The notes under the pieces: model-generated
Told to the model about the DNA's origin: nothing
The model's database searches: none
What the model saw: the letters and a program-made list of their open reading frames with translations, nothing else
NCBI GenBank assembly: GCA_947624345.1
Contig: CANQJW010000007.1
Span: forward strand, 1 to 35,154
Source: an uncultured Clostridia bacterium
Lineage (GTDB): Bacteria; Bacillota; Clostridia; Oscillospirales; Ruminococcaceae
Reading direction: 5' to 3'
Length of the DNA: 35,154 bases
Part shown: one piece after another, positions 21,674 through 35,154 of the stretch
Position numbering within the stretch: the stretch's first letter is position 1
Layout of the letters: every line of letters begins with the position of its first letter
Program-made: the position numbers and the translations under genes

Positions 21674-21750
21674 TTTTCTTTCCTACTTTAAAATTGAATA
21701 GTTAATATAAGGCCCGAATTTCCCACCGAGTAAGAAATCGTCCCCTTCAT

Positions 21751-23847
21751 TTAATGATTACTGAACACAATTAGTTTATCGTTCTCTTCTATGCAAACAT
21801 CGATATTTGCCTGGTCTCCTTCAAACAGTATCATACGCCCACCTGGTTTAACATAGCCAAGAGCAATGGTAGGATTCTGCTGTTTCATCGGCAATGAGGC
21901 ATCTACTGACGCATTGTATACCGCTCGTATTAACTCTTGTGCCGTGCAAGATTTCGGACATTCATTGAACAGTCTATTTACCTTCTTGGTGTATATTTCC
22001 TTGCTTTGATAGCCCTCTGAATCTTCTGTGTCATAGGTCAGGATATCAGTATAGAAATCAAACAGCGCTTCCTTCTCCCCTATTTGCGTAATCATCTTGC
22101 TGATATACCGATTGCTGATGACGACATTATTCACGCTATAACTGTTGACAATATCGTGATGCTTAGGGTCGATGATCTCAACAATAACATCCACACTCTT
22201 CGTATCAAAATTGGGATTAGCTGCTTTCTTGGTATTGATAATGTCCTGCACATAAACCAGGTTGGCTAAGGCATTTGCATCTATATCCTCGTTCAATGCC
22301 ATATCATCTGACAAAATCAGGACACTCGTATCTTCGTCATTTAATTCCACGAACTGGCTAATTGTAGAACATATAATATCCTTGTCGTAAATACTTGCTG
22401 CGACGGTCTCAATGACGAATGGATACTCCTTGTAGTAGTTCATCTTTTCCAAGTTCTTTTTATCGTCAATAACAACAATCCTAAGAATCTCCCGGTCATA
22501 CTTGTAATTCCATTCACTGCGGAATGCGGCAAATCCTTGCATAATATCCCGACATTTACTGTTGTGACCGAGGATGATAACGTTTTTGCTTTCTATCCAG
22601 TAGTTCCTGTTTAGAGAAACTGTGTAAGAAGATGAAGCTATGCTGCTTGTCTCACGCATGTCTTTTTTACTAGCTGCAGAAAAATAATGATACGCCTTTC
22701 CGTCGTTCATCATGTATGTCAAGGGGAGGGCGTGCCGATGGTTTTTCATATAAGTTAGAACAAAATCGTTTCCTTCATCCACCTCATAAGGTTCAGTGAA
22801 GAACGTAGCTCCTTTGTTGGAAAACATCTCTTTGTAAACAAGATTCAATTCCGGCATAATAGAAAACTGAGACAGAATTTGCCCCAATATCTTGTTGACT
22901 CTCACCGGAATAATATTGCATTTGCCCTTGACTTCTTTACATTTGATAATCTTATCAACAAGTTCATATGTCCACTCATCTGTTATCTCTACAATAATTT
23001 TCTGATCGTCACTGGAGTATGCAGCGGCAGTAATATCAGCAACCTGCATGAGCGTTTTTATCGTTTGTGAATTGCCTCGCTCATGCTCTCCAATACGCTC
23101 CCGGGTCTCAAACTTACAAATCGTATTATTGATATCGCTTCCCAAAATAATAATCGATTTTGCATGCTCAAGCGAAATATCATGAAGCTGTTTTGAAGAA
23201 AACACGTCACCTTCCCGTACAACTACCGTCAGATGATTATGAAATTTCATTCTTTGGGCATTTAGGATACGCCGGAAAAATCCCAAATTCATGTACTCTA
23301 CATTTTCTCTTGCCACCGTGTCCGAAAGGCGCTCGTCGATCTCTTTTTCTATCTCTTTTTTCTTGTTGCTGACCAAGACGACTACTTTCTGCTTTTTATC
23401 ACAATATAGAAGATCGTTTACAATCTCCGATGCCCTGGTATTCCAGTTTAAAATAACAATATGATTGGAAATATGAAGCTTTCTGGTTCCAGAATTCGAA
23501 TCCTCTATAAAATTGGAAATATAGTTGGTTATGTAACCAATCACAGCACCTGTAAATGATATCATTCCGATAAAAATGATAGCTAAACAGACAAAAACAA
23601 TCGTTACTCCGGCTTGTCCGATATCGGAAACAACAAATTGTATACAGCCGGCGTCAAGGATCATTGTCACCGTACAGAAAGCAGCCTCGATAAACGACAT
23701 GTGTTCTGTTCCTGACAAGGACATGTTGCTGATTATAATTGCCGATACAAAGAAAAAAACAATGTTGAATAACAGTATGGCTGCAAGGACCATCTTTCCC
23801 GGATTTTTTACAAGTTGAACGCTTAAACATTCCCTTATCTTTTTCAT
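21751..23847 (-). CDS. CASTOR/POLLUX-like ion channel with tandem RCK (TrkA-N-type) domains
   Basis: 698 residues. TM1 at about 18-40, a pore-helix region at 50-75 (FIEAAFCTVTMILDAGCIQ) and TM2 at 80-113 form a two-TM channel. A first nucleotide-binding-like RCK domain starts at about 126 (NHIVILNWNTRASEIVNDLL) and a second at about 421 (KNVIILGHNSKCRDIMQGF). This layout matches the plant CASTOR/POLLUX/SYM8 nuclear cation channels and their bacterial relatives; ion selectivity is unknown, since the TVTMILDAG stretch lacks the potassium-channel GYG. ATG 23847 is preceded by AGGAGG. It is downstream of the 1493-residue protein with a 157-base gap without evident structure, and is the last full-length gene of the cluster. 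Confidence 0.8.
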   Translation of the reverse strand: MKKIRECLSVQLVKNPGKMVLAAILLFNIVFFFVSAIIISNMSLSGTEHMSFIEAAFCTVTMILDAGCIQFVVSDIGQAGVTIVFVCLAIIFIGMISFTGAVIGYITNYISNFIEDSNSGTRKLHISNHIVILNWNTRASEIVNDLLYCDKKQKVVVLVSNKKKEIEKEIDERLSDTVARENVEYMNLGFFRRILNAQRMKFHNHLTVVVREGDVFSSKQLHDISLEHAKSIIILGSDINNTICKFETRERIGEHERGNSQTIKTLMQVADITAAAYSSDDQKIIVEITDEWTYELVDKIIKCKEVKGKCNIIPVRVNKILGQILSQFSIMPELNLVYKEMFSNKGATFFTEPYEVDEGNDFVLTYMKNHRHALPLTYMMNDGKAYHYFSAASKKDMRETSSIASSSYTVSLNRNYWIESKNVIILGHNSKCRDIMQGFAAFRSEWNYKYDREILRIVVIDDKKNLEKMNYYKEYPFVIETVAASIYDKDIICSTISQFVELNDEDTSVLILSDDMALNEDIDANALANLVYVQDIINTKKAANPNFDTKSVDVIVEIIDPKHHDIVNSYSVNNVVISNRYISKMITQIGEKEALFDFYTDILTYDTEDSEGYQSKEIYTKKVNRLFNECPKSCTAQELIRAVYNASVDASLPMKQQNPTIALGYVKPGGRMILFEGDQANIDVCIEENDKLIVFSNH

Positions 23848-24004
23848 GTTATCCTCCTAAAATACGCAATTTTTTTCAAAGCCAGCATAAAACCTAGGAT
23901 ACAAAATTAAAATATATAGACCTATAGACACCATCTCTGATATTAAAGCTCTATATCCGAACATTTTGGAAAAACGCCTATTGCTACAAGGACAAGCACT
24001 TTTC

Positions 24005-27000
24005 CTACATTTTGAATGACTGCTCTGAACCGTCGCCCGAATTCACGCCATCCGTCGGCATAATAACAGTAAACGGACCACAGAATTCGGGATCCAACGG
24101 GGTTTCCACATTCATAAACGGAGTCGCCTTTGTAATAACGGTGCCCAAAGAGAAAGGATAGTTTGCACGATAACGAAGAAATCCGTGTCCATACTCATCA
24201 TTGCGATAAGCAGTAATGATCTCTTCCCTTTTCGCGGTCGCAGGCTCATTGATCAGGTAAGCATATTGGATTTCTACCCATTTTGCCATACCTTCGTAAA
24301 TTTCCAACCGCATATTCTTGCCGTATTTTTTGCTAATCGCTTTATCATTCCAGTTAATATACTGCCAAATGTGGGTAAGTTCATGAGCCATCGTCAGCAT
24401 AGATGCCATACGCGGCGAACCATTTTCCACCAATAAAGTATAACCATTACGGTCGCTGATAGCAACTCCCAGAACGCGTCCATCACTCTTTGGCGTAGGA
24501 ATAAATGCCTTACCAAGACGCTTATGGAGCATTTTAGAATTCACCATTTCGACTTTTATACCCGCATTGATTCGAATGCCGAAGAAAGATTCCATGTTCC
24601 TCTTGACATCTTCGAATATCCTGCGGAACTCTTCGCCGGTTTTGATTGCGGTTCTACCGCAATTAAAACATCTATCGCGGCCGTCCGCGAGAGTTTCATA
24701 CTCTACGCCAAAGATCTCTGTACCGCAGAAATCACAATATCTTGCATCGGGTTTTCCTGGCTTATAGGTCGCTTCAATAAATTCGGCAATCTTCTTGCCC
24801 TCTCTGGCCTGCTTCAAGGCATTTCTCTGCAAACCCATTTCAGATAAATAATCAAGCGTTCCGGAAAGTTCAATATAAACAGGCTCGCACTCTCTGCCGT
24901 AAAGCATGTAATAACGCTCGTGATAAGGTCTGCGATCTGTGGAAAATCCGACTTTCGCGGTCTGATCGTTTTCCGCAGAAGGAAGGATCTCATCGGAAAC
25001 CTCAATTTCTTTATCTGAATCGTCTTCGACGGGCTGTGCCTTTTTCTTGTGCTTTCTCAGCCCTAAGATGCCTTTCTTCTTGCTGTCTTGCTTGTCTTCC
25101 TCATTGGGATTGGAGAATTTTGTTCCGTCTTCAACAGGACTTTCTGCCTGCGGCTTTTTCTCAGGAATGGAAGGCGTATCAACGGGGACTTCGTCACCCG
25201 GCACTTCTTGGTCAGAGGGTTTCTCGCCATCCTTAGGTTTTCTCTTAAACCATCCCTTGATTTTATTGATGATTTTCTTGACCCCACAACCGATCTTTGC
25301 GAAAAATCCCTTTTTATTGGGCTTATTATCGTTTTCGGAATCCGTGAACACGATTGGCGGTTTTGGATCCACCAGCGGATTGAGACTCGCCTCAAGCGTT
25401 TCCAGATGCCAATTCAAATAATCATAAATAATACTGAAAATTCTCTGGAGATTCCTTTCCACCGCGATCGTCAAGCCAAGATCCAGCTGACTGTCCTCGA
25501 TGATATAGATCGCGTTTTGATGGAGCTCGCAGCCTTCGCCTCGCACCGAATAGGTCAGGGGCTTGTCCCCCTCGACCTCCGCGAGGAACGAATCATCGGT
25601 CACCGCGCAGATATACGCTTGATTCTCAGCGAAAATAGTCTTGAATATCTCGTTGAACAACAGCGCGACGGTGTAACGGATATTATCGTTTAATTTTCCG
25701 TCAAACTCGGGCAGCTCGATGCGAAGAATTTCTTTATTGTGATAAACACGCTGAGGAATACCGTTTGTTTCTCCCTCAAACGAAATGCGTTTTGCGGTGG
25801 TGAAATCGTTGTATTTCTCCATTCGGTAGTAGCCGGGAGTGTTGACGATGATATCGGCAAATTCTTTGACTACCTTCATGCCCGCGATATCCTTCTGCGC
25901 GCCGATCTTTTCGGACGACCTGACTCCGCAGACGACGTACTCGCGAATCTGTCTATACGTAGGACGGCCGGTGATGTGATCGGCCGCGCGTCTCACTAAG
26001 ACCTGCCCATCTGCGGTCAAATACTGCATTTCATAATATTTTCCACCGAATGTAAAGAACTGACCCGGTAAATATTTTTGATAAATATGACCGCCAAGCT
26101 CTGCTCCGAGATAGTAGCTTTGACCCTTTTCATCCTCCGCAACATATTCGGCCGAACGAATTTCAGATACACACAAAGTCAGGAACTCCGAATCAGATAT
26201 GGAATACGTCGTCTCCATCATGCCGATCTTCAGGTTGAAGGATTCCTCAACTTTTATGATATCATGCGTCCATTCCGTATCCGCGAGCTTTAAGGATTTG
26301 GCATATACTTCATTGACCGCTTGCCGATAATTCTGCGGCAGCTCGTTCATCACGGACACTTCGGAGTAACAGTGGAACAGCTCATACCAAAGCTGCTTTT
26401 TGAGATCGAACACGGGAATGCCGAGCAAAGACAGCTCTTTTTCCAGTGTCTCGGAACAGACCGGAAACGTACTCATCATCAAAATCAGGCGAAGAATGAT
26501 ATTGCGGTTGCTTCTTGCGTAATCCGCGACAATAAACGGGATCGCCTTCGCGTCCGTCTCGAAGATAGAGGCGTTATCCGCCATATAATCCTTCAGGAGA
26601 TAGTCGGAAGAAATAATATTGATAAATCCCTGCTTCGTAGTCCGGGTAGAAAAGTCGCGCAAGATCTCAAACATATTAGACGCTTCATCTTCGACCGTAA
26701 AATAATTGTTCTTTTCTACCTCGGCGCTCCAGAAATTCGGCGTGGTAACAAAGCACTCATCCAGCGACTCCTGACTGGTGGGCAAGCTTGCATATTTTGT
26801 CAAATCATAATAATACTGCTTGTCGATCCAGCGAATATCCGTTACCGGAAAGGCTTCGCCGCCATACCACTTAGTTTTTGAAACTTGGTTCTTCAGAGCA
26901 GCAAAGGATAATTCGGTACCCATGCCAAGATATCTTGAAATATTGGGCACCAAGCGATGATGGAGATAGTCTTCATCCGCCTCCCAACACATATAAGAAG

Positions 27001-28486
27001 ACGTACCGAGATGCTTTTCCGTTGCCGACACCTCAGTAATGCTTTTCATAAGGATATGCGACATTGCATCTACCAATCCATCACAGTTCTTGTCACACAT
27101 ACAAAATACGATACTTTTATTTTCCTCTATTCTGCATTTCTTCGCCAGCAAATTCAACCCGATCTGCGCTGTGGAGATCAGTTTTGCGGGCTCAATAATC
27201 ACACAGAAACCGACACTTTCGAGAAATTCCGAATTAGCATTATGAAGCTTGATATTCAAAACATCCGATCTTGTGACAATACCAATATCGAGATCCTGCT
27301 CTTCAGATGTCAAGACGCCAACATTCCATAAGAATGGAATATTGGTGACAGCTTCTATTCCCTTTTCAATCCATTCTTTAATATCGTCTTCAATCGAATG
27401 TCTGCCAAGCACGACCAATACTTTTTGATGACTCAAAAGAACCCGGTTCATGGGATAAAAAGCATATGGTATTAAATCATGATAAAACGGATTATTGAAC
27501 AATATGCTCTTTCCATTCAGCATATCTAAAGAAGAATGAAGATAATTATGATCGATCTGAAATCCTGTTTTGTTCAGGGTATCTATATACGAAGCAAAAC
27601 AAACTACTTTCTGGTCCTCACTCTTTTCAAGTTCGCGAATGATTTCATCGGTAGTTACATCATAAGCCAAAGCGTTGTTGATGCTGGTGCTTTCCGCGAG
27701 CAACTTATCACCAAAAATAGAGCGCAAAAATTTTCTCAGCAAAGAATAGTTTACAATCTTATAGGCGTCTTCATCTTCACCTAAAATATGTTGGGAATAC
27801 TCTCGCTTGGTAGCACCGTCAAGATAAAAATACAATTCTCCAACAACAAGAATCCCAAAAACCGGGTAGAAAACTGATCTCATCAATCCATCATAGTAAA
27901 ATTTGCGGCTAATAATCATTAACAGAGCAGAAAGCGCAACCGCGCTGTAATAGAAAACCCGAAACATACTGCGGACTTGAACACAGTTTTCCTTAATGCA
28001 CCACTTGTTCTTCTCAGAGAAATATTCGTAAAAATTCCCCGAAATTTTTATGTGTAGCCCTCCGTCCGTTTTAACAGCCTTAGCCATGATTTGAATGAAA
28101 ATCCTCTTTATGAATATATAAGCCAAAATAATAACCGTATTAGCGATGAAGAAGACCCAGAAATTCAGATTAAGCTTTGCAAGTATAGAACTCAGAAAAC
28201 TTCCGATGTGTGTAAATGCAGTTCCAATCGGAGTAGGCATCCATGAATGGCCGGCTAATGCGGATATCCATTTAGGTAAATTATTAACAAGCTTTATAAG
28301 CCACTCATTGATAGAGTTCATTAAAATCATTGCAACGATTACATAAACCAGTGCAATAATGGGCATCAGAAACTGTTTGCTGCGATCAGGTTTGGGAAGA
28401 TTTACTTTCTTGCTGGCAAAGCAAAGAATTACAAAAGGAAGAATCGCCAATATCATCTTGGCTATATTAAGAATCGTCTCAATCAT
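24005..28486 (-). CDS. Giant membrane protein with C-terminal LIM-like zinc ribbon and DA1-like HExxH metallopeptidase
   Basis: 1493 residues. The first 225 or so contain about six hydrophobic segments. A long cytosolic-type alpha/beta region follows (residues about 230-1030, with KVLVVLGR, IGIVTRSD, CVIIEPAKL reminiscent of a P-loop/helicase-like fold without a Walker A), then a basic, proline/acid-rich linker (about 1045-1185). A treble-clef-like ribbon CDFC...CFNC lies at 1251-1276, and HELTH at 1368-1372 has a downstream EGMAKWVE Glu at 1398. Ribbon plus HExxH plus EG(x)n order is that of DA1-type peptidases. GGAGG lies 6 bases before ATG 28486, and the 680-residue gene overlaps it by 8 bases. 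The 25.4-26.9 kb part is visibly more GC-rich than the rest. Confidence 0.75.
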   Translation of the reverse strand: MIETILNIAKMILAILPFVILCFASKKVNLPKPDRSKQFLMPIIALVYVIVAMILMNSINEWLIKLVNNLPKWISALAGHSWMPTPIGTAFTHIGSFLSSILAKLNLNFWVFFIANTVIILAYIFIKRIFIQIMAKAVKTDGGLHIKISGNFYEYFSEKNKWCIKENCVQVRSMFRVFYYSAVALSALLMIISRKFYYDGLMRSVFYPVFGILVVGELYFYLDGATKREYSQHILGEDEDAYKIVNYSLLRKFLRSIFGDKLLAESTSINNALAYDVTTDEIIRELEKSEDQKVVCFASYIDTLNKTGFQIDHNYLHSSLDMLNGKSILFNNPFYHDLIPYAFYPMNRVLLSHQKVLVVLGRHSIEDDIKEWIEKGIEAVTNIPFLWNVGVLTSEEQDLDIGIVTRSDVLNIKLHNANSEFLESVGFCVIIEPAKLISTAQIGLNLLAKKCRIEENKSIVFCMCDKNCDGLVDAMSHILMKSITEVSATEKHLGTSSYMCWEADEDYLHHRLVPNISRYLGMGTELSFAALKNQVSKTKWYGGEAFPVTDIRWIDKQYYYDLTKYASLPTSQESLDECFVTTPNFWSAEVEKNNYFTVEDEASNMFEILRDFSTRTTKQGFINIISSDYLLKDYMADNASIFETDAKAIPFIVADYARSNRNIILRLILMMSTFPVCSETLEKELSLLGIPVFDLKKQLWYELFHCYSEVSVMNELPQNYRQAVNEVYAKSLKLADTEWTHDIIKVEESFNLKIGMMETTYSISDSEFLTLCVSEIRSAEYVAEDEKGQSYYLGAELGGHIYQKYLPGQFFTFGGKYYEMQYLTADGQVLVRRAADHITGRPTYRQIREYVVCGVRSSEKIGAQKDIAGMKVVKEFADIIVNTPGYYRMEKYNDFTTAKRISFEGETNGIPQRVYHNKEILRIELPEFDGKLNDNIRYTVALLFNEIFKTIFAENQAYICAVTDDSFLAEVEGDKPLTYSVRGEGCELHQNAIYIIEDSQLDLGLTIAVERNLQRIFSIIYDYLNWHLETLEASLNPLVDPKPPIVFTDSENDNKPNKKGFFAKIGCGVKKIINKIKGWFKRKPKDGEKPSDQEVPGDEVPVDTPSIPEKKPQAESPVEDGTKFSNPNEEDKQDSKKKGILGLRKHKKKAQPVEDDSDKEIEVSDEILPSAENDQTAKVGFSTDRRPYHERYYMLYGRECEPVYIELSGTLDYLSEMGLQRNALKQAREGKKIAEFIEATYKPGKPDARYCDFCGTEIFGVEYETLADGRDRCFNCGRTAIKTGEEFRRIFEDVKRNMESFFGIRINAGIKVEMVNSKMLHKRLGKAFIPTPKSDGRVLGVAISDRNGYTLLVENGSPRMASMLTMAHELTHIWQYINWNDKAISKKYGKNMRLEIYEGMAKWVEIQYAYLINEPATAKREEIITAYRNDEYGHGFLRYRANYPFSLGTVITKATPFMNVETPLDPEFCGPFTVIMPTDGVNSGDGSEQSFKM

Positions 28487-30521
28487 ATAATTCCTCCCTA
28501 ATAAGCGTAACAGATTCTACATAATCGATAGGAATAACAATCTTGTTTCCTTCTTGGAGAAAATCAATGTCTTTTCTAACATCAGAATATGGGATATCAT
28601 AATCATAATACTGAAGAACTGTAAAGTCATAGTTATACGGTTCTGCTTCAAAAGTAAGTTTAACATCATCAGGATCAATATACATTGAGAACAGCTCATT
28701 GACCTCACTAATCTTTTCGACAATTATTCGTTTATGATTTGACAGAATGTGTTGTTTCTTTTTATAAGAACTTTCAGAATAGTTCAAAACAGAAAACTCT
28801 CGCATCACATTGCATACATGGCTGAGATACCTTGAAAAAGAATCAACACCACTTTCTATCTCCTGCAATATTCCAGACATAACATAGTTAAAATGCTTAA
28901 ACCTATTAACCAATTTATGCCTCAACACAAAGAGATAAATAAGTCCTATTGCTAAGAAAATTCCAAGAACTATGGCAACAATAGTTAAAGAGAATAGGAA
29001 AGATTTTATGGTATTAAGATTTCCAAGGACCAGCGGAAGGAAGCCAACAAAGTAGGCTAAAACTGCAAACAATCCAACGAACATGGTCTTCTTCTTAGTC
29101 ATTCGCTGAGCTATCCCGCGTCTAATATTCTCATCCGCTTCCCTCATTTTCTTGTTGTAATGGTCTGTATTAAATAATTGAGTAGTTGAAGTAGACACCA
29201 TATTATGCTCCTCTTCTTCAAGAAGGTACATGACATCTTCCTTTTGATACTCATTTAACCTAATAGCTCTTTCATCTTTGATTTGATTCATCGTTCTAAA
29301 ATCTTCCTTCGTTGCAGATTTAACTGCACGTCTAGGTTCTCTTAAGAAACGAATGAAATACTTGTTAATCGTATAGAACTGATTATCCCAATACTCATAT
29401 TCATTACTGGGACAATCCTTTGATAAACCAATTTTGTTGAATTTAGATTTAAGATTATCTCTGCTTTCTTTGGTGACAACCTCTATTGGGATCGTGACAT
29501 TAGATTCAAAACACTTTTCTGCTGTATATTTATCTATCGGTTGATTCTCTTTATCTTTAATTTTTTTCGAAGTTTCATCAATTTTAGCTAAAGTAGAATA
29601 TAGTTTTGAATTGTATGCATTGCAAAGATTCTTAACACATTCTGTATCTATTTGCATATCAAGTTTATAAACTCGATTAGAACGCAGAATTCCATGCGGA
29701 CAATCATATGTAGCAAGTAGCATTATGGCTGTTAAAAAATTGAAATAAAGATTTTCATTTCTGCGTCCTTTGATATAAGAAACATCAAAAATTAAGTATC
29801 TTAATTTTTCAGGATAAAGATTATCAAAATAAAATTGAGAATAGTCAAACTCTGTATGATTGGTCCATGCCAATTCTGCTAATTCTGTGTCGACATTTTT
29901 CGCCCTTTCAGCTATTGTTATAACCGATTTGGGAAGATTAAAAAGTTCTCCATACAATTCAAAGCTTTCACTTAATTTTGAAAACTTGAGATTTTTGCTC
30001 CAATCAATTTCTACATCGGACGATTTAAGCTTTAGCTCTTCAAGTAGCTTATAGTATTCTACACTGCTATCAATATTATCAACCTCATCTTTTACTTTAT
30101 CATAACACAACTTTGGAGGGGTATTAAACGGAGTTCCACACAGCCAAATAGAAAGCTTTGTTAACGGATTGCTCAATGCTTTATCAATCAATTCGTTTTC
30201 AGACTTTCTAAAAACTTTAATCTGTTCAAAAGAAGAAAATTGATATTTTTTCTTTCTAGAATCCACAAAATCAAAAGGATTACGCTTATTTACACCATCA
30301 AAACCCCAAGTAGAACTATCATTTACAATAACCGCACGCCATTCCTTTTTATGGTGAATTATCGACTTTAGTTCTGGCAACGCCTCATCAAGAGTTTCAG
30401 CCTTTGTATTCCAAGCACAAAAGGCAAAATTATTCTTATCAAAAAAAGGTTTAAAATAAATATGATACTTATGATAACAATCTTTAACTATGTGTTCATC
30501 ACATATTATAACTGTAAACAT
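28479..30521 (-). CDS. Two-TM protein of unknown function in the tubulin cluster
   Basis: 680 residues; no family recognised. The N-terminus (MFTVIICDEHIVKDCY, then EWRAVIVNDSS at 60-70) has the strand-Asp pattern of a Rossmann-like or receiver-like fold. Residues 100-470 are polar and helical with no motif identified. Two TM helices at about 480-503 and 508-533 form a hairpin, followed by about 150 residues of helical cytosolic tail. Base composition is clearly AT-richer than the neighbours. Its stop overlaps the start of the 1493-residue gene by 8 bases, so the two are translationally coupled. A perfect 12-base-pair hairpin lies just upstream of its start; TAAGG and GTGAG are the nearest ribosome binding candidates. 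Confidence 0.7.
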   Translation of the reverse strand: MFTVIICDEHIVKDCYHKYHIYFKPFFDKNNFAFCAWNTKAETLDEALPELKSIIHHKKEWRAVIVNDSSTWGFDGVNKRNPFDFVDSRKKKYQFSSFEQIKVFRKSENELIDKALSNPLTKLSIWLCGTPFNTPPKLCYDKVKDEVDNIDSSVEYYKLLEELKLKSSDVEIDWSKNLKFSKLSESFELYGELFNLPKSVITIAERAKNVDTELAELAWTNHTEFDYSQFYFDNLYPEKLRYLIFDVSYIKGRRNENLYFNFLTAIMLLATYDCPHGILRSNRVYKLDMQIDTECVKNLCNAYNSKLYSTLAKIDETSKKIKDKENQPIDKYTAEKCFESNVTIPIEVVTKESRDNLKSKFNKIGLSKDCPSNEYEYWDNQFYTINKYFIRFLREPRRAVKSATKEDFRTMNQIKDERAIRLNEYQKEDVMYLLEEEEHNMVSTSTTQLFNTDHYNKKMREADENIRRGIAQRMTKKKTMFVGLFAVLAYFVGFLPLVLGNLNTIKSFLFSLTIVAIVLGIFLAIGLIYLFVLRHKLVNRFKHFNYVMSGILQEIESGVDSFSRYLSHVCNVMREFSVLNYSESSYKKKQHILSNHKRIIVEKISEVNELFSMYIDPDDVKLTFEAEPYNYDFTVLQYYDYDIPYSDVRKDIDFLQEGNKIVIPIDYVESVTLIREELYD

Positions 30522-30539
30522 TTTCTCACTGCCTTACAC

Positions 30540-30573
30540 TTCTCCCGCCGCTATATATATTGCGGCGGGAGAA
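30540..30573 (-). promoter_or_regulatory. Perfect 12-base-pair intercistronic hairpin
   Basis: TTCTCCCGCCGC and GCGGCGGGAGAA flank a 10-base AT loop. No T-run follows on either strand, so it is not a standard terminator. On the mRNA strand the second arm contains GGGAG about 20 bases before the 680-residue gene's ATG. It could set expression downstream of the tubulin gene or act as an RNA stability or processing element. Confidence 0.55.
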
Positions 30574-30594
30574 AATTAAATATTAAAAATTAGA

Positions 30595-33500
30595 TTAATC
30601 CTCTTCAATAGCTGCAAGCTTGTCTGTATAATTTTCAAGATCCTTATTAGTAAAATAGCCGCAAATTGTTCTGCGAATAGATCCACAAACTTGGTCGGAA
30701 AACATACCAAGGCGAATTATTTTTTCATACTTTTTATAGTTATCTATTAAGCAGTTGAATTGATCCGCTATGATATCCGCAACATTACCAAGTAAAGCAT
30801 CTTCATTAGCGGTGCAAATTCTCATCTCGCTATAAATCATTTCAATAATTGCTTCAACCATTATTTTCATTTCTGCCATATCCCTGTTCTGAACCGGAAG
30901 GGAATTGCAATACATCAAAACAATAGTAAAAAGCGAAACATGATCATCCACCTTGTTTAGCTCAGGATTATTAACAAACCTTCTGAATTTGAGTTCTTTC
31001 AGTTTCTTAAAGAACTCAATATCTTCATGAGAACGGAACCCGAACTCTTCATTCTTTCTTCTGAGTCTATTGACATGATCATGAATAGTAGCAACAGCCA
31101 ATCGATCAAAATAGAGAGAATCTAACACCTCATAAAGAACATCACATTTTGTCTTATTGGATACTACCAAATCAATTGTATCATTTTCAGCATTGAGATA
31201 CTTATAAATCTTTTCATTTGGGTTCTGATCAGAAGTCTTATAAAGACAGATACGACCATAAACAAAGCCATACAATAATGACTTATGAATTTTACGCATA
31301 AGGTGTTTTTGATAATCCATGTCCAATTCGGGCATAGTAGAAATAGCATTCCAACGCTTATCAATGTGAGGTGTGATAATAGCGGTAGTCTTACTATCAG
31401 GTCCAATCTTATCCATATAACTCTGATAAATTCTAAAATAATCACCTGCGGAAAGCTGTTCATATTCGTTTTCGCCGCTAATACTAAATTCATCAGTTTC
31501 ATCATCGTATATTGGAGAAGACATCTTAGCAAGCTGAGTGGGCATAATATTATAAACCGCACGATAGAAACGAAGCTCATACTTAGAAACAGTAGGAGTG
31601 GAAATTGCATTAGGAATGAAGGCTGCCACACGAATACCTTCACCGTCTTCTATGGAATCATTGCAAGAAACAATGTTTACTTCTCGTTCTTCTTCGTTAT
31701 CCTTCTTCTTGATACCGGGACTTGCAAGGTTTCTACAAGTTTCAATCAAGTCATTGATATACTTATTTACACTTGACTCCTTATAAAGTTCAGAAGCCTT
31801 TTCATCCTTCTTTTCAGGATTTACATTGTCAAGTTGGAGAGAAGCTTTTACTTCATATTCAAGTTTAATAGCATGGAGGATGCTCTTAACATTGATAATA
31901 TCGCAAGATTCGTCAACTCGGTCTTTATAATACTCGATAATAATATCGTCAAAGATATCCTTTTTACTCTCATAGTTGAACGGATTAACGCTACGGCGTG
32001 CTTCAATATATGCATTGTTTCTCAGCGATTCGAAAATCTTAGCAAATAGCTTAGATGCTTCCTCTCCACTATCAGAAGGTCTGCCAACGCTTGCAGTAAG
32101 CTTATCAAGACACTTCTTTTCACCAAGCACATAACGAATACAGTCGCCATTGTTGAAAGTAAGTTTGGTTACAATATCTTCCTTTCTTTTCTCAATACTT
32201 GGGATTTTACTATCGAAGGTAGCATAGAAATCCTCGTAAGCTTTGATAAGATTGTTAATGGTTGATCTTGAAATATCACAAACCTGCTTAGTAATAACCC
32301 ACTTGAAATAATTCTCAACGAGGCGATAATACTTTTTCAAATAATTATTGCAACGCTCTCCGGGGTTATCAACCACATTATCCATTTTCTTAAGTTTGTC
32401 ACATGCTTCGCACATTTCACGAAGATCATTTTCACGACCGCGAGCAAGCTTAACTTCAAATTTCTTATCGCCCTTCTTATTATCATCATCTGATGATTCA
32501 ACAATCTTAATTTTTTTATCTTCAAAGGATGCTAGAAACTCGTCTGCTTCTGTTTCTCTGGAATTAATAGTCTCCCGAAGCTTGTACAAGAGATAACGTG
32601 CAGCATTAGGATGAACAATCTTACCGCGTACAGAAAGGAATCTCTCCAACATGTACTCGCCAAGATCATCTTTAGTAGAAGATGCCTTACTATTAAATAC
32701 TTCTTTAGCAAAAGATTTTACAATTTCAACAAAGTGAGGGCTCGACGCAATATCTTCAATACTGTAAATAGCATTAAAGCGAGACTCATATTGCATATCG
32801 CCAGCAGATCGCTTTGCAATCTCAAAGGTTCTGTTTTCAGTTAAACCGTATTCATTTTCGATTTGACCATCGATAACACCAGCAACAAGTGCATCAATGT
32901 ACTTTTCTGCAACTCGTGCTATAGTTCTTTCTGTTTCTTCATCGCTGAGAGTTTTAATTTTTGCTTCGAGATATTTATCCCACAGCATCAATGAAAAGTC
33001 ATTACCGTTTTTTTGATCTCTTCCCGACTCAATACTGCTCATATAAACGCCAGAACGGGTAGGCTCGTTTTTGCTGCTGGAACTGGGGTTTTCTTCCCAC
33101 ATCTTATATTCTAACTTAAATTTCTCATCATACTGGAGCCAAGAACTCTCAAGTAATGCTTTTCTCTCCTCATCACTTAATCTATCATCAGCAGAAGACC
33201 CAATAATGCTCGCACGAGCCCAGTTAAGTGCAATATAATTTCTGATATCCTCATAAGGATATTTAAGAACAGATGCACCTGCACCCGCAAAACGGCAACG
33301 ACCTAGTTTATCCGGACTAATGCAAAGCTTCAAAATATTATCCTCGACGCTTGAGGCCTTTGTTTGCATAGGACCAATATTCTGCTCATATATGGACTGA
33401 GCGGCATAATCAATATACTGAGGTAATGTTGTCATATTGCCTGCATTTGAGTCTGTTCTGTCCATAAGAAAACAGAAATCAAAAGGAAGATTGCTGAGTT

Positions 33501-34269
33501 TTTCATCACCTGAAGAAGCATTAGGAATGGAAATATGTAAATCCTTATATCTTTGGAGCTCGGGAACAGTATCAAAGAAACCGCTACCCTTCATCATAAA
33601 TGCATTTATTTCCTTAATAGTTGCATATCCATTACAACGAAGGCTGTCTTTCTCACTTTGGGCTGCAATAACTGTATCCATTACTCCGGGCATAATCAAG
33701 AAACCACGAATCATAACAGCAGCTTCAGGATAATTCTTTTTCACATAATGACGAACCAACATACCTGTTTCCATAGCTACACCAGAACCTGTTCCACCGG
33801 CTGCTGTAGAAGCAATAACAACTCTAATGGCCTGTTTTAAACCGCCGCCATCTTTAAGAAATAAATCATCAATGGCCTTATAAAGCTTATAAATCTTACC
33901 ATTCTTAATAATATCATTTAAAGCGAGGCGGGAAATAGCACGTACCTGACCGGCTCCTTCAGAAACAGTCTTGTCATCCAACATTTTGTTTTCAGGAAAC
34001 CAATTGTTCTTAGCGTCTTTATCGTTATCAAGATAGCTTCCTACAGTCCTTGTAGAAGAAGTTTGAATAGCAACGATTTCTGCACCTTTATTAACAGTCA
34101 GCAGATCATTAACATCGGTATCCATTACAACAAAACGAATGTTGCTAGTGTCATCATTGATTGCTCGGTCGGCAACACCTTTAATAATTTCAGATCCCCT
34201 ACCTCCAAGACCAATGAAAAGAGTCGGTGCGTTCACTTTGTTTGATTGAATTTTCTCCTTGATGTACAT
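30595..34269 (-). CDS. Large tubulin/FtsZ-superfamily protein (Tubulin_2 / FtsZ-like)
   Basis: 1224 residues. The N-terminal GTPase part shows APTLFIGLGGRGSEII at 14-29 (glycine-rich T1 loop), FVVMDTD at 46-52, and the tubulin signature TAAGGTGSG at 155-163 for GTP phosphate binding. These match the prokaryotic tubulin-like (Tubulin_2, FtsZl-type) families rather than FtsZ itself, which is about 350-400 residues. The remaining 800 or so residues are long, charged and mainly helical, with no TM segment. It probably assembles at or near the membrane with the neighbouring membrane proteins. GGAG/GAGG precede ATG 34269; the upstream membrane gene ends 18 bases before. Confidence 0.82.
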   Translation of the reverse strand: MYIKEKIQSNKVNAPTLFIGLGGRGSEIIKGVADRAINDDTSNIRFVVMDTDVNDLLTVNKGAEIVAIQTSSTRTVGSYLDNDKDAKNNWFPENKMLDDKTVSEGAGQVRAISRLALNDIIKNGKIYKLYKAIDDLFLKDGGGLKQAIRVVIASTAAGGTGSGVAMETGMLVRHYVKKNYPEAAVMIRGFLIMPGVMDTVIAAQSEKDSLRCNGYATIKEINAFMMKGSGFFDTVPELQRYKDLHISIPNASSGDEKLSNLPFDFCFLMDRTDSNAGNMTTLPQYIDYAAQSIYEQNIGPMQTKASSVEDNILKLCISPDKLGRCRFAGAGASVLKYPYEDIRNYIALNWARASIIGSSADDRLSDEERKALLESSWLQYDEKFKLEYKMWEENPSSSSKNEPTRSGVYMSSIESGRDQKNGNDFSLMLWDKYLEAKIKTLSDEETERTIARVAEKYIDALVAGVIDGQIENEYGLTENRTFEIAKRSAGDMQYESRFNAIYSIEDIASSPHFVEIVKSFAKEVFNSKASSTKDDLGEYMLERFLSVRGKIVHPNAARYLLYKLRETINSRETEADEFLASFEDKKIKIVESSDDDNKKGDKKFEVKLARGRENDLREMCEACDKLKKMDNVVDNPGERCNNYLKKYYRLVENYFKWVITKQVCDISRSTINNLIKAYEDFYATFDSKIPSIEKRKEDIVTKLTFNNGDCIRYVLGEKKCLDKLTASVGRPSDSGEEASKLFAKIFESLRNNAYIEARRSVNPFNYESKKDIFDDIIIEYYKDRVDESCDIINVKSILHAIKLEYEVKASLQLDNVNPEKKDEKASELYKESSVNKYINDLIETCRNLASPGIKKKDNEEEREVNIVSCNDSIEDGEGIRVAAFIPNAISTPTVSKYELRFYRAVYNIMPTQLAKMSSPIYDDETDEFSISGENEYEQLSAGDYFRIYQSYMDKIGPDSKTTAIITPHIDKRWNAISTMPELDMDYQKHLMRKIHKSLLYGFVYGRICLYKTSDQNPNEKIYKYLNAENDTIDLVVSNKTKCDVLYEVLDSLYFDRLAVATIHDHVNRLRRKNEEFGFRSHEDIEFFKKLKELKFRRFVNNPELNKVDDHVSLFTIVLMYCNSLPVQNRDMAEMKIMVEAIIEMIYSEMRICTANEDALLGNVADIIADQFNCLIDNYKKYEKIIRLGMFSDQVCGSIRRTICGYFTNKDLENYTDKLAAIEED

Positions 34270-34287
34270 AATACCTCACTCCTATTT

Positions 34288-35154
34288 TTAATCGTTATGA
34301 TTAACATAAATTCTGCCAGTTATTGTGTGACGATTTGTATTCCACTTCAATTCCGTATCATCGCTTACACGAACTTTGGGTTTTAATTGTGAAATGGTCT
34401 CGCCTTCGTCATTTACATATTTTCCGTTAACCTTTTTAAACCTTGAACCATCAATTTCATACCAGTTAACGCTACCTATCGGTCGAATATCTTTAATTTC
34501 AAAACAAGCTGTCGGTTTTCCACGACTTTTCAATGGCGTACAAGCTTTTGCTTCACATCGTATCTCACCTGGATACAAATCTGTTGATAGTCCAACTGAT
34601 GCTCCATTTACCTTCATCGGCTGACATGTGTTTTTTATTTTTAAATAAACAGAAGATGGCAATGTTGGATGATTCAGAATCATAATAATAATGATGATAA
34701 TCGCAAGAATTATTAAAATCCACAATAACCAACGCCAGAACTTACTGTACCACTGAATTTCAAAAGATACGTCATCCTCGGCCGTTACTTCCTCACCGTA
34801 TTCATCCATATATGTAGCTGAAATGTTGGTGCGATATTTACCGGTTTTGGGTTCAATATATTTGCCGTCATCATCATTGGCAATGTAAATATTAAATGCC
34901 GATTCGCCTTGAACGGGTTCGTATCGATAATTCAATTCTCCCGCTCCGGAAGACGTAACAGACAGTGTTGTTTTTTCCAGCTGTTCGTCGGTCAACGGTT
35001 GACCGTCCAGCGTCATTGTAACTCGAATCGGTTTCCAATTCTCATAATCTTTCAACTTAAACCATGATTGTGATTGCATGCACAAGTCCAGTAAAAACGG
35101 ACAATAGAAAAAACACCCCCTATATGGTAGAATAAAAGAAACTACCGTAAAGGG
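34288..35154 (-). CDS. C-terminal part of a single-pass membrane protein, 5' end missing or truncated
   Basis: The frame ends at 34288 and stays open to the window edge; a TTG at 35085 or ATG at 35079 could serve as start but neither has a ribosome binding site. The visible part has a beta-rich Ig-like segment (WKPIRVTMTLDGQPLTDEQL, then TGKYRTNISATYMDEYGEEVTAEDD), one TM helix (FWRWLLWILIILAIIIIIIM), and a second beta-rich domain of about 115 residues. Such a layout is seen at the C-end of surface proteins with adhesion or vWA domains, but no vWA is visible here. Codons beyond about 35086 look like insertion-sequence DNA rather than gene. It is directly upstream of the tubulin gene and likely in its operon. 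Confidence 0.6.
   Translation of the reverse strand, partial: PFTVVSFILPYRGCFFYCPFLLDLCMQSQSWFKLKDYENWKPIRVTMTLDGQPLTDEQLEKTTLSVTSSGAGELNYRYEPVQGESAFNIYIANDDDGKYIEPKTGKYRTNISATYMDEYGEEVTAEDDVSFEIQWYSKFWRWLLWILIILAIIIIIIMILNHPTLPSSVYLKIKNTCQPMKVNGASVGLSTDLYPGEIRCEAKACTPLKSRGKPTACFEIKDIRPIGSVNWYEIDGSRFKKVNGKYVNDEGETISQLKPKVRVSDDTELKWNTNRHTITGRIYVNHND
35086..35154 (+). mobile_element. Possible insertion sequence end running off the window
   Basis: The sequence contains GTCC-N9-GGAC (35087-35103), a CACCCCC tract, an extended -10 TGG-TAGAAT at 35125-35133 directed to the right, a GGTAG/CTACC inverted repeat (35126-35146) and an AAGGG at the edge that could be a ribosome binding site. This is the organisation of an IS3-like left end ahead of a transposase gene, and it interrupts the neighbouring membrane gene. 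The exact boundary and the IS family are not established. Confidence 0.4.

Follow-up and report, generated by a model that had tools for sequence, protein, structure and literature searches.

A conserved clostridial operon encoding a vWA-type protein, a tubulin-like GTPase and a predicted metallopeptidase on a helicase-like fold

Gene order and its conservation

We analyzed a window that comprises one entire contig (CANQJW010000007.1; 35154 bp) of an 84.6%-complete assembly of an uncultured Ruminococcaceae bacterium, and we describe here the gene cluster at positions 21751-35154. Read along the minus strand, this cluster consists of a vWA-type gene fragment, a tubulin-like GTPase gene, and the genes for a two-transmembrane protein (TM2), a large multi-transmembrane protein with a putative metallopeptidase end (PEP), and a CASTOR/POLLUX-type channel (CHAN). 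An original prediction for this DNA had proposed five adjacent genes on one strand; all five open reading frames (ORFs) do lie on the minus strand, and their coordinates and lengths were given correctly. The intergenic gaps are 18 nt between the vWA-type and tubulin genes, 73 nt between tubulin and TM2, and 157 nt between PEP and CHAN. The 8-base overlap that the same prediction placed between TM2 and PEP is real. Of 68 relatives, 43 have an in-frame start that allows exactly this overlap, mostly ATGATTGA-like; since our script picked whichever start came closest to giving 8 nt, the 43 counts genes in which such an overlap is possible. A consensus scan found no minus-strand terminator-like site in the 157-nt gap between PEP and CHAN. 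The same scan placed a terminator-like hairpin directly after the CHAN gene, which is weak evidence; the scan yielded 15 sites, compared with 8.2 in shuffled sequence.

Relatives were collected by scanning species genomes with an alignment of PEP. The best 80 of 99 relatives gave 79 distinct loci, each with up to 10 kb on either side. A contig scan of species genomes with the tubulin alone as the query returned no relatives; the peptidase alignment succeeded. By record title, the 79 loci derive mostly from metagenome-assembled genomes of Oscillospiraceae, Lachnospiraceae, and other Clostridia, with single loci from Treponema, Eggerthellaceae, Ancillula, and Myxococcales. Carriers named in this way include Faecalicatena contorta ET51, which has the channel upstream (L072), and Pseudoflavonifractor sp. 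An44, which has no channel within the stretch examined (L057).

We found that the vWA-type, tubulin, TM2, and PEP genes follow one another in this order and on the same strand in 55 of the 56 loci whose sequence extends 8 kb or more upstream of PEP, the exception being L100. Likewise, TM2 precedes PEP in every locus with at least 2 kb upstream (66/66). The sequences also diverge in parallel (tubulin and TM2, r = 0.91; TM2 and PEP, r = 0.87), although these values include shared species history. The gene set, gene order, domain make-up, motif conservation, and co-occurrence are directly supported. The conserved order answers, for the four core genes, the possibility that their homologues are scattered independently in related genomes. 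Thus, of the original proposal that all five families form one co-occurring set, the part concerning the four core genes stands, whereas the channel, seen in 22 of 79 loci, is an optional partner. PEP matched 24 of the 394 genomes of the order that we examined, in 16 of them as a strong match, and a full-length match to the window tubulin was found in 1 of 15 members of the genus. We consider it firm that the operon is a robust, conserved system, and equally firm is the anatomy described below, apart from the unseen end of the vWA-type protein.

Predicted architecture of the core proteins

The 1224-residue protein is, by sequence, clearly a member of Pfam Tubulin_2 (PF13809; residues 17 to 354, E = 1.6e-51, 176.1 bits against a curated cut-off of 27) and a putative FtsZl1-type (FtsZ-like 1) GTPase. 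The match bears out the original assignment to the tubulin superfamily. Both nucleotide-binding loops that we examined are invariant among the 60 relatives tested (Table 1). Compared with the GTP-binding loop pattern GGGTG(S/T)G, the window protein reads AGGTGSG. A sequence profile of the tubulins (alignment A9; 20 of 60 relatives plus the window) had no match in the PDB at E <= 0.01.

Upstream of the tubulin gene, the ORF is still open where the contig ends. Because the contig is exactly 35154 bp long, the first gene of the operon is a fragment and not a whole single-pass membrane protein, as had been thought. Its product is 44% identical to residues 467 to 637 of the 714-residue vWA protein of L047 (E = 9.5e-46) and 31% identical to the 887-residue vWA protein of L010. 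It comprises the end of an ectodomain, one transmembrane helix, and a cytoplasmic β-rich tail. Judged by these alignments, it is the C-terminal part of a predicted secreted vWA-domain protein that has been cut by the contig end. Full-length relatives have a signal-peptide-like stretch, a vWA-like domain (DxSxS plus TDG), a β-rich ectodomain, one transmembrane helix, and a tail. The DxSxS metal-binding motif is present in 50 of 55 relatives by a strict pattern and in 54 of 55 by a looser one. The vWA domain would lie past the contig end, and the window holds the matching C-terminal part of such proteins. At the very edge of the contig (35080-35154), 25 codons cannot be aligned with relatives although the frame is open; they represent either an unreliable assembly edge or a rearranged copy.

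An AlphaFold2 model of TM2 (pLDDT 90.7) contains an N-terminal α/β domain, a hydrophobic hairpin, a helix of about 105 residues, and a C-terminal β segment. TM2 reached no Pfam family cut-off, and a search of its fold against the PDB gave no match at E <= 0.001. Its sequence profile (A6; 63 of 66 relatives plus the window) matched PDB chains only weakly and only at helical stretches (best E = 0.0036). Coiled-coil pore proteins topped the fold search (best E = 5e-3). However, they superposed poorly, with TM-scores of at most 0.28 among the top ten, and we rejected TM2 as a pore protein.

PEP combines several parts. A model of residues 1 to 1045, built from 64 sequences, has a pLDDT of 87.3. Its top four Foldseek matches in the PDB are all chains of MrfA, with E values from 7.4e-23 to 1.9e-11 and TM-scores of 0.53 to 0.60 by target length, and other superfamily 2 helicases come next. 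The best of the four, 6znp, aligns over 832 columns (TM-score of 0.55 by target length). In the stretches where the helicase motifs would lie, however, neither Walker A (0/64) nor DExH/DEAD (0/64) occurs, and a motif-VI-like pattern is present in only 3 of the 64 sequences. Where a P-loop would be expected, the sequence is N/D-P-F-Y, and where DExH would be expected it is E-P-S, in which P433 is invariant; the placing of these residues on strands of the model is our own reading. Because the MrfA-like fold is predicted while the helicase motifs are absent in 64/64, we call the core a dead helicase, that is, a modeled helicase fold that has lost its helicase site, and do not class it as a helicase. 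The alignment of this core (A5) holds the window and 63 of the 64 loci left from 69 by an 85%-identity filter; L103, which has a large insertion, was dropped.

A variable linker follows the PEP core, then a four-cysteine zinc ribbon, and then the motif HExxHxW...EGMAxW. In the 77 loci that cover this region, the zinc ribbon and HExxH are present in all and EGMA[KV]W in 76. The HExxH motif and the downstream glutamate suggest that the C terminus is a zinc-dependent peptidase of gluzincin-like type. The nearest Pfam family is DUF6782, which all 39 members of the peptidase alignment match (A7; 38 of 77 loci plus the window; best E = 1.6e-5). Membership in the DA1 family, as originally claimed, was rejected: DA1-like matches are marginal by comparison (E <= 1 for 11 of 39 members, with 0.017 as the best value), and the window protein has none. 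The description of PEP as a multi-transmembrane protein with a zinc ribbon and HExxH motif was right as to its motifs but incomplete, since it missed the core with the inactive helicase fold.

PEP varies in its make-up among relatives. The zinc-ribbon peptidase is a separate ORF in some, for example, L088, L089, and L101. An extra C-terminal region, either fused or encoded by its own ORF, is found in 27 of 79 loci (for example, L062:9980-15688 and L072:14148-15359) and matches a Pfam transglutaminase family in both members tested (L062, 1.3e-8; L072, 2e-5). One locus carries a second large HExxH ORF of 1547 residues about 19 kb from the peptidase gene of the operon (L011:6833-11476; G049).

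Table 1. Features of the operon in the window
Feature	Position	Strand	Basis
vWA-type fragment	34288..35154	-	ORF open at contig end
Tubulin_2/putative FtsZl1-type GTPase, 1224 aa	30595..34269	-	PF13809
T1 nucleotide-binding loop GLGGRG, residues 20-25	34195..34212	-	GxGGxG in 60/60 relatives tested
T4 loop GGTGSG, residues 158-163	33781..33798	-	GGTGSG in 60/60 relatives tested
TM2, two-transmembrane protein, 680 aa	28479..30521	-	ORF and AlphaFold2 model
Overlap of TM2 stop and PEP start, 8 nt	28479..28486	-	Sequence
PEP, multi-transmembrane protein with predicted pseudo-helicase, zinc ribbon and metallopeptidase, 1493 aa	24005..28486	-	ORF, Foldseek, motifs
PEP N-terminal membrane helices, residues 1-222	27821..28486	-	AlphaFold2 helices and hydrophobic sequence
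PEP predicted MrfA/DUF1998-type helicase fold without catalytic motifs, residues ~247-1035	25382..27748	-	Foldseek; range read off the model
PEP zinc ribbon CxxC...CxxC, C1251-C1276	24659..24736	-	77/77 loci covering the region
PEP HELTHIW and EGMAKW motifs, H1368 to W1403, putative gluzincin-like active site	24278..24385	-	Motif conservation
CHAN, CASTOR/POLLUX/DMI1-family RCK channel, accessory, 698 aa	21751..23847	-	Family profile against PDB
CHAN predicted selectivity filter LDAGCI, residues 64-69	23641..23658	-	D65 and G67 each conserved in ≥90% of 19 channels
Terminator-like hairpin directly after CHAN	21713..21730	-	Consensus scan, weak evidence

The channel and other accessories

The window CHAN alone reached no Pfam cut-off, and the member in L108 matches Castor_Poll_mid (E = 1.8e-9). 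A profile of 19 channels (A3; 18 of 22 channel genes plus the window) matches CASTOR of Lotus in the PDB (2.5e-17), DMI1 (6e-15), and, weakly, MthK (1.5e-3), which bears out the CASTOR/POLLUX-like channel of the original prediction. As given in the text available for CASTOR (PMC6697748), that channel has the filter AD265S(A)GNHA and is Ca2+ selective, and its D265N substitution abolishes activity. Since the filter of CHAN retains the Asp-Ala-Gly of CASTOR, our best guess, by analogy, is that CHAN is a Ca2+ channel.

Of the 79 loci, 22 have CHAN next to the operon, downstream of it in 18 (within 0.81 kb in 13) and upstream of the vWA gene in 4. The 394 genomes of the order yielded nine CHAN matches, five full-length and four partial. 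All five full-length matches lie in PEP-positive genomes, on the same contig and within about 8.6 kb of the operon; none of the four partial matches lies in such a genome. The association with PEP has a Fisher P value of 5.5e-7 for full-length CHAN and of 5.9e-5 for all nine matches. A set of 299 genomes of the phylum gave two PEP matches and five CHAN matches, four of them partial; the only full-length one is the window's own. Mapped onto the PEP tree, the channel label requires 14 changes, at least 10 of which are forced by well-supported branches; the 14 is an overcount, because "channel absent" takes in loci that are cut short. The label is no more clustered than in shuffles (136 to 143 of 500 were as low), and the channel therefore comes and goes. 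CHAN is a genuine recurrent accessory and not a core gene.

A second accessory, an RyR-type membrane protein about 610 residues long, is found in 20 of 79 loci (for example, L111:15887-17719, L048:15444-17216, and L106:2502-4427). In 15 of the 20, its gene follows PEP on the same strand at a distance of no more than 1.5 kb. One member matches Pfam RyR just below the cut-off (E = 1.5e-5) as well as TrkA_N, and the L106 member matches neither. The family profile (A4; 15 of 20) matches RyR-domain chains in the PDB (4.3e-12). RyR-type matches, many of them partial, occur in 17 of 24 PEP-positive genomes of the order compared with 30 of 370 others.

TIR-LRR proteins form two neighbor clusters of five and four loci, with L111 in both, and thus occur in 8 distinct loci of the 79 (for example, L047:17119-19107 and L074:17227-18909; one member per cluster was checked). 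Such genomes commonly encode LRR proteins of this type.

The rest of the window is ordinary. Pfam identified UvrA, UvrB, carboxylase subunits, a pseudouridine synthase, a D-Ala-D-Ala carboxypeptidase, ScpB, ScpA, and an M50 peptidase at positions 141-21087, and two tRNA genes lie at 141-320.

Interpretation and relation to known systems

We propose that the cassette is a membrane-embedded sensing-and-response complex and a subtype of the vWA/FtsZl1 operons, whose likeliest role is in conflict or defense against an attack or envelope threat; we give this proposal about an even chance of being correct. The interactions, the direction of signaling, the substrate, the ion, and the role are what we infer, as follows. 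The secreted vWA ectodomain, with its divalent-metal (metal ion-dependent adhesion site, MIDAS) motif, would bind something at the cell surface. Its transmembrane helix and cytoplasmic tail could then relay this event to the cytosolic tubulin-like GTPase, which would assemble or switch on at the inner face of the membrane, where the hairpin and long helix of TM2 may tether the assembly. This would in turn free or position PEP, whose dead MrfA/DUF1998 fold might act as a regulated scaffold that restrains the peptidase or builds the complex. The zinc-ribbon metallopeptidase would be the executor and cut a cellular or membrane substrate, and in the subset of operons that includes the window, the CASTOR-type channel may add or report a Ca2+ flux. 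We favor a conflict role because the spread is patchy, the accessories change, and sister operons with vWA proteins, tubulins, and GTPases have been read as conflict systems in the main text of a 2020 study (PMC7159879). A narrower, immune-like version is possible but doubtful: a previously unrecognized complex in which a surface vWA receptor would signal to a tubulin GTPase that licenses a metallopeptidase scaffolded on a dead helicase and opens a Ca2+ channel of the CASTOR family or, in other strains, an RyR-type membrane protein. If true, this version would provide a prokaryotic functional setting for the Ca2+ channel family of plant symbiosis and would connect cytoskeletal GTPases of bacteria with cell death or defense coupled to Ca2+.

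Several results weigh against parts of this proposal. The sequence profile of the PEP core matched no PDB chain at E <= 1, and hhalign found no sequence relation between PEP and two DUF1998-type helicases; the helicase claim therefore rests on predicted structure. The vWA call leans on motifs, because Pfam VWA is matched at E <= 0.001 by only 3 of 27 alignment members (best 8e-6; A8, 26 of 55 relatives plus the window fragment, which itself lacks the domain) and the whole-protein profile matched no PDB chain at E <= 0.01. No match to a vWA domain was found in the window or elsewhere in the incomplete assembly. The conservation of the peptidase motifs is partly built in, since YEGMAKW, which 75 of 79 loci contain, was one of the two patterns that guided the search for relatives. 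Thirteen loci carry the other pattern, and the 11 of these that cover the region have HExxHxW in 11 and EGMAxW in 10; in a motif-free profile search of the genomes of the order, 16 of 16 strong PEP matches extend as far as the peptidase end, which in some is a second piece or lies on another contig. As for defense, searches of 72,556 plasmid and 50,697 phage records gave no match to the operon and hence no mobile carrier; PADLOC models gave no convincing match (best E = 0.0023); and none of the ten window neighbors scanned is a defense gene (nine belong to housekeeping-type families, and one has no match). Finally, CHAN is absent from most operons, and the core therefore does not need it.

Three other explanations deserve consideration. 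The cluster could be a membrane-remodeling or vesicle machine in which tubulin filaments bend or cut the cytoplasmic membrane, TM2 and PEP serve as anchors, and the peptidase ensures turnover. This was the role predicted in 2010 for vWA/FtsZl1 operons in the main text of Makarova and Koonin (PMC2875224), and membership in Tubulin_2, the several membrane partners, and the hairpin and very long helix of TM2 are all consistent with it. We nevertheless regard it as unlikely, as it explains neither the conserved peptidase site nor the inactive helicase scaffold nor the RCK channel; moreover, the same text reports that FtsZl1 lacks recognizable T6-H7 elements, and a reviewer of that paper doubted the idea because several vWA parts are outside the cell and the tubulin is inside. 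Improbable, too, is a housekeeping pathway for envelope stress or Ca2+ signaling, in which the vWA MIDAS would sense cations or wall damage, the peptidase would free a regulator, and the channel would adjust Ca2+. The vWA metal motif, the CASTOR-type filter, the RyR-type accessory, and a chromosomal site amid housekeeping genes all fit such a pathway, whereas its patchy presence in genus and order would be atypical, and most operons lack the channel.

That the window holds a four-gene system beside an unrelated channel gene is very unlikely. The channel was not seen in 57 of 79 loci, some of them cut short, the gap before it is 157 nt instead of an overlap, and its label is unclustered on the PEP tree. 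Against this reading stand its recurrence beside the operon, mostly at short distance downstream, and the finding that every full-length CHAN of the order is in a PEP-positive genome and that the sole one of the phylum set is in the window genome.

With the sensing-and-response complex as our preferred interpretation, the subtype supplies FtsZl1/Tubulin_2 operons with a definition by four conserved genes, with a candidate executor in the form of a putative HExxH peptidase borne on a pseudo-helicase, and, as an option, with a putative Ca2+ channel. Protease, ion-flux, and remodeling models are now directly testable, and bacterial CASTOR/POLLUX relatives are now sited in a defined operon.

The original prediction had taken the cluster for an undescribed membrane system. 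This is correct for the subtype and not for the kind, which was described as vWA/FtsZl1 operons in 2010, with a sister kind following in 2020. Literature searches in open-access PMC brought up no title or abstract on a vWA-tubulin-TM2-PEP operon or on such an operon with a bacterial CASTOR-type channel (subscription papers, preprints, and supplements fall outside this scope), and the parts of PMC9871819, on FtsZ/tubulin evolution, and PMC11090510, on CoCoNuT systems, that were available do not describe it. In the open-access literature, to the extent covered, we found no tested function for FtsZl1/Tubulin_2 operons, known since 2010.

The GTPase-centric systems of Kaur et al. (2020), which include DO-GTPase and GAP1-N2 types with tubulin and vWA components, resemble the window operon in part. 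The main text (PMC7159879) describes Firmicutes members with tubulin-domain proteins that have a C-terminal coiled coil and with the vWA part outside the membrane, and it does not contain "DUF1998," "ion channel," or "RyR." We observed a DO-GTPase2-like vWA-tubulin operon type in two further loci, one from the window's genus (L015:1302-14795; G012) and one from its family (L014:6409-20000; G033). These resemble the 2020 conflict systems, with DO-GTPase2 identified by Pfam. None of eight proteins from these two loci, two of which are of DO-GTPase type, has a homologue in the 79 loci at E = 1e-3, and the window operon is therefore a separate subtype. Nor was the DO-GTPase component of the DO-GTPase/GAP1 tubulin systems found in it; TM2 and PEP have no GTPase match in Pfam. 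A distant sister type (L013:544-16109; G052) encodes a vWA-like protein of 1376 residues, a tubulin, a TM2-sized protein, and an HExxH protein of 1761 residues with a transglutaminase-like part.

At the level of single proteins, PEP shares its predicted core fold with the DUF1998 helicase MrfA (PDB codes 6znp, 6znq, and 6zns). Unlike MrfA, it lacks Walker A and DExH in the stretches searched in 64 members and is fused to membrane helices and a peptidase. CHAN and the plant nuclear Ca2+ channels CASTOR, POLLUX, and DMI1, as far as the available text of PMC6697748 describes them, both have a pore with an RCK-type soluble part and an Asp-(Ala/Ser)-Gly filter. However, CHAN is bacterial, and Cys-Ile replaces Asn-His after its Asp-Ala-Gly.

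The closest relatives at the level of the operon are the vWA/FtsZl1 operons. According to the main text of PMC2875224, some of their vWA proteins have a signal peptide or transmembrane segment and most have an intact MIDAS; that text does not contain "peptidase," "channel," "metallo," or "potassium," and its supplements may list one of the loci described here. A P-loop GTPase, a kinase, and OmpA are frequent, although not universal, partners there. None of the six neighbor clusters present in at least 4 of our 79 loci was recognized as one of these, with neighbors not annotated singly. As that text portrays them, the 2010 operons and the window operon both have a Tubulin_2 GTPase with a long C-terminal part beside vWA or, in the window, vWA-type proteins, further membrane proteins, and a patchy spread. 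They differ in their partners, which in the window operon are TM2 and the predicted pseudo-helicase metallopeptidase, together with an optional CASTOR-type channel.

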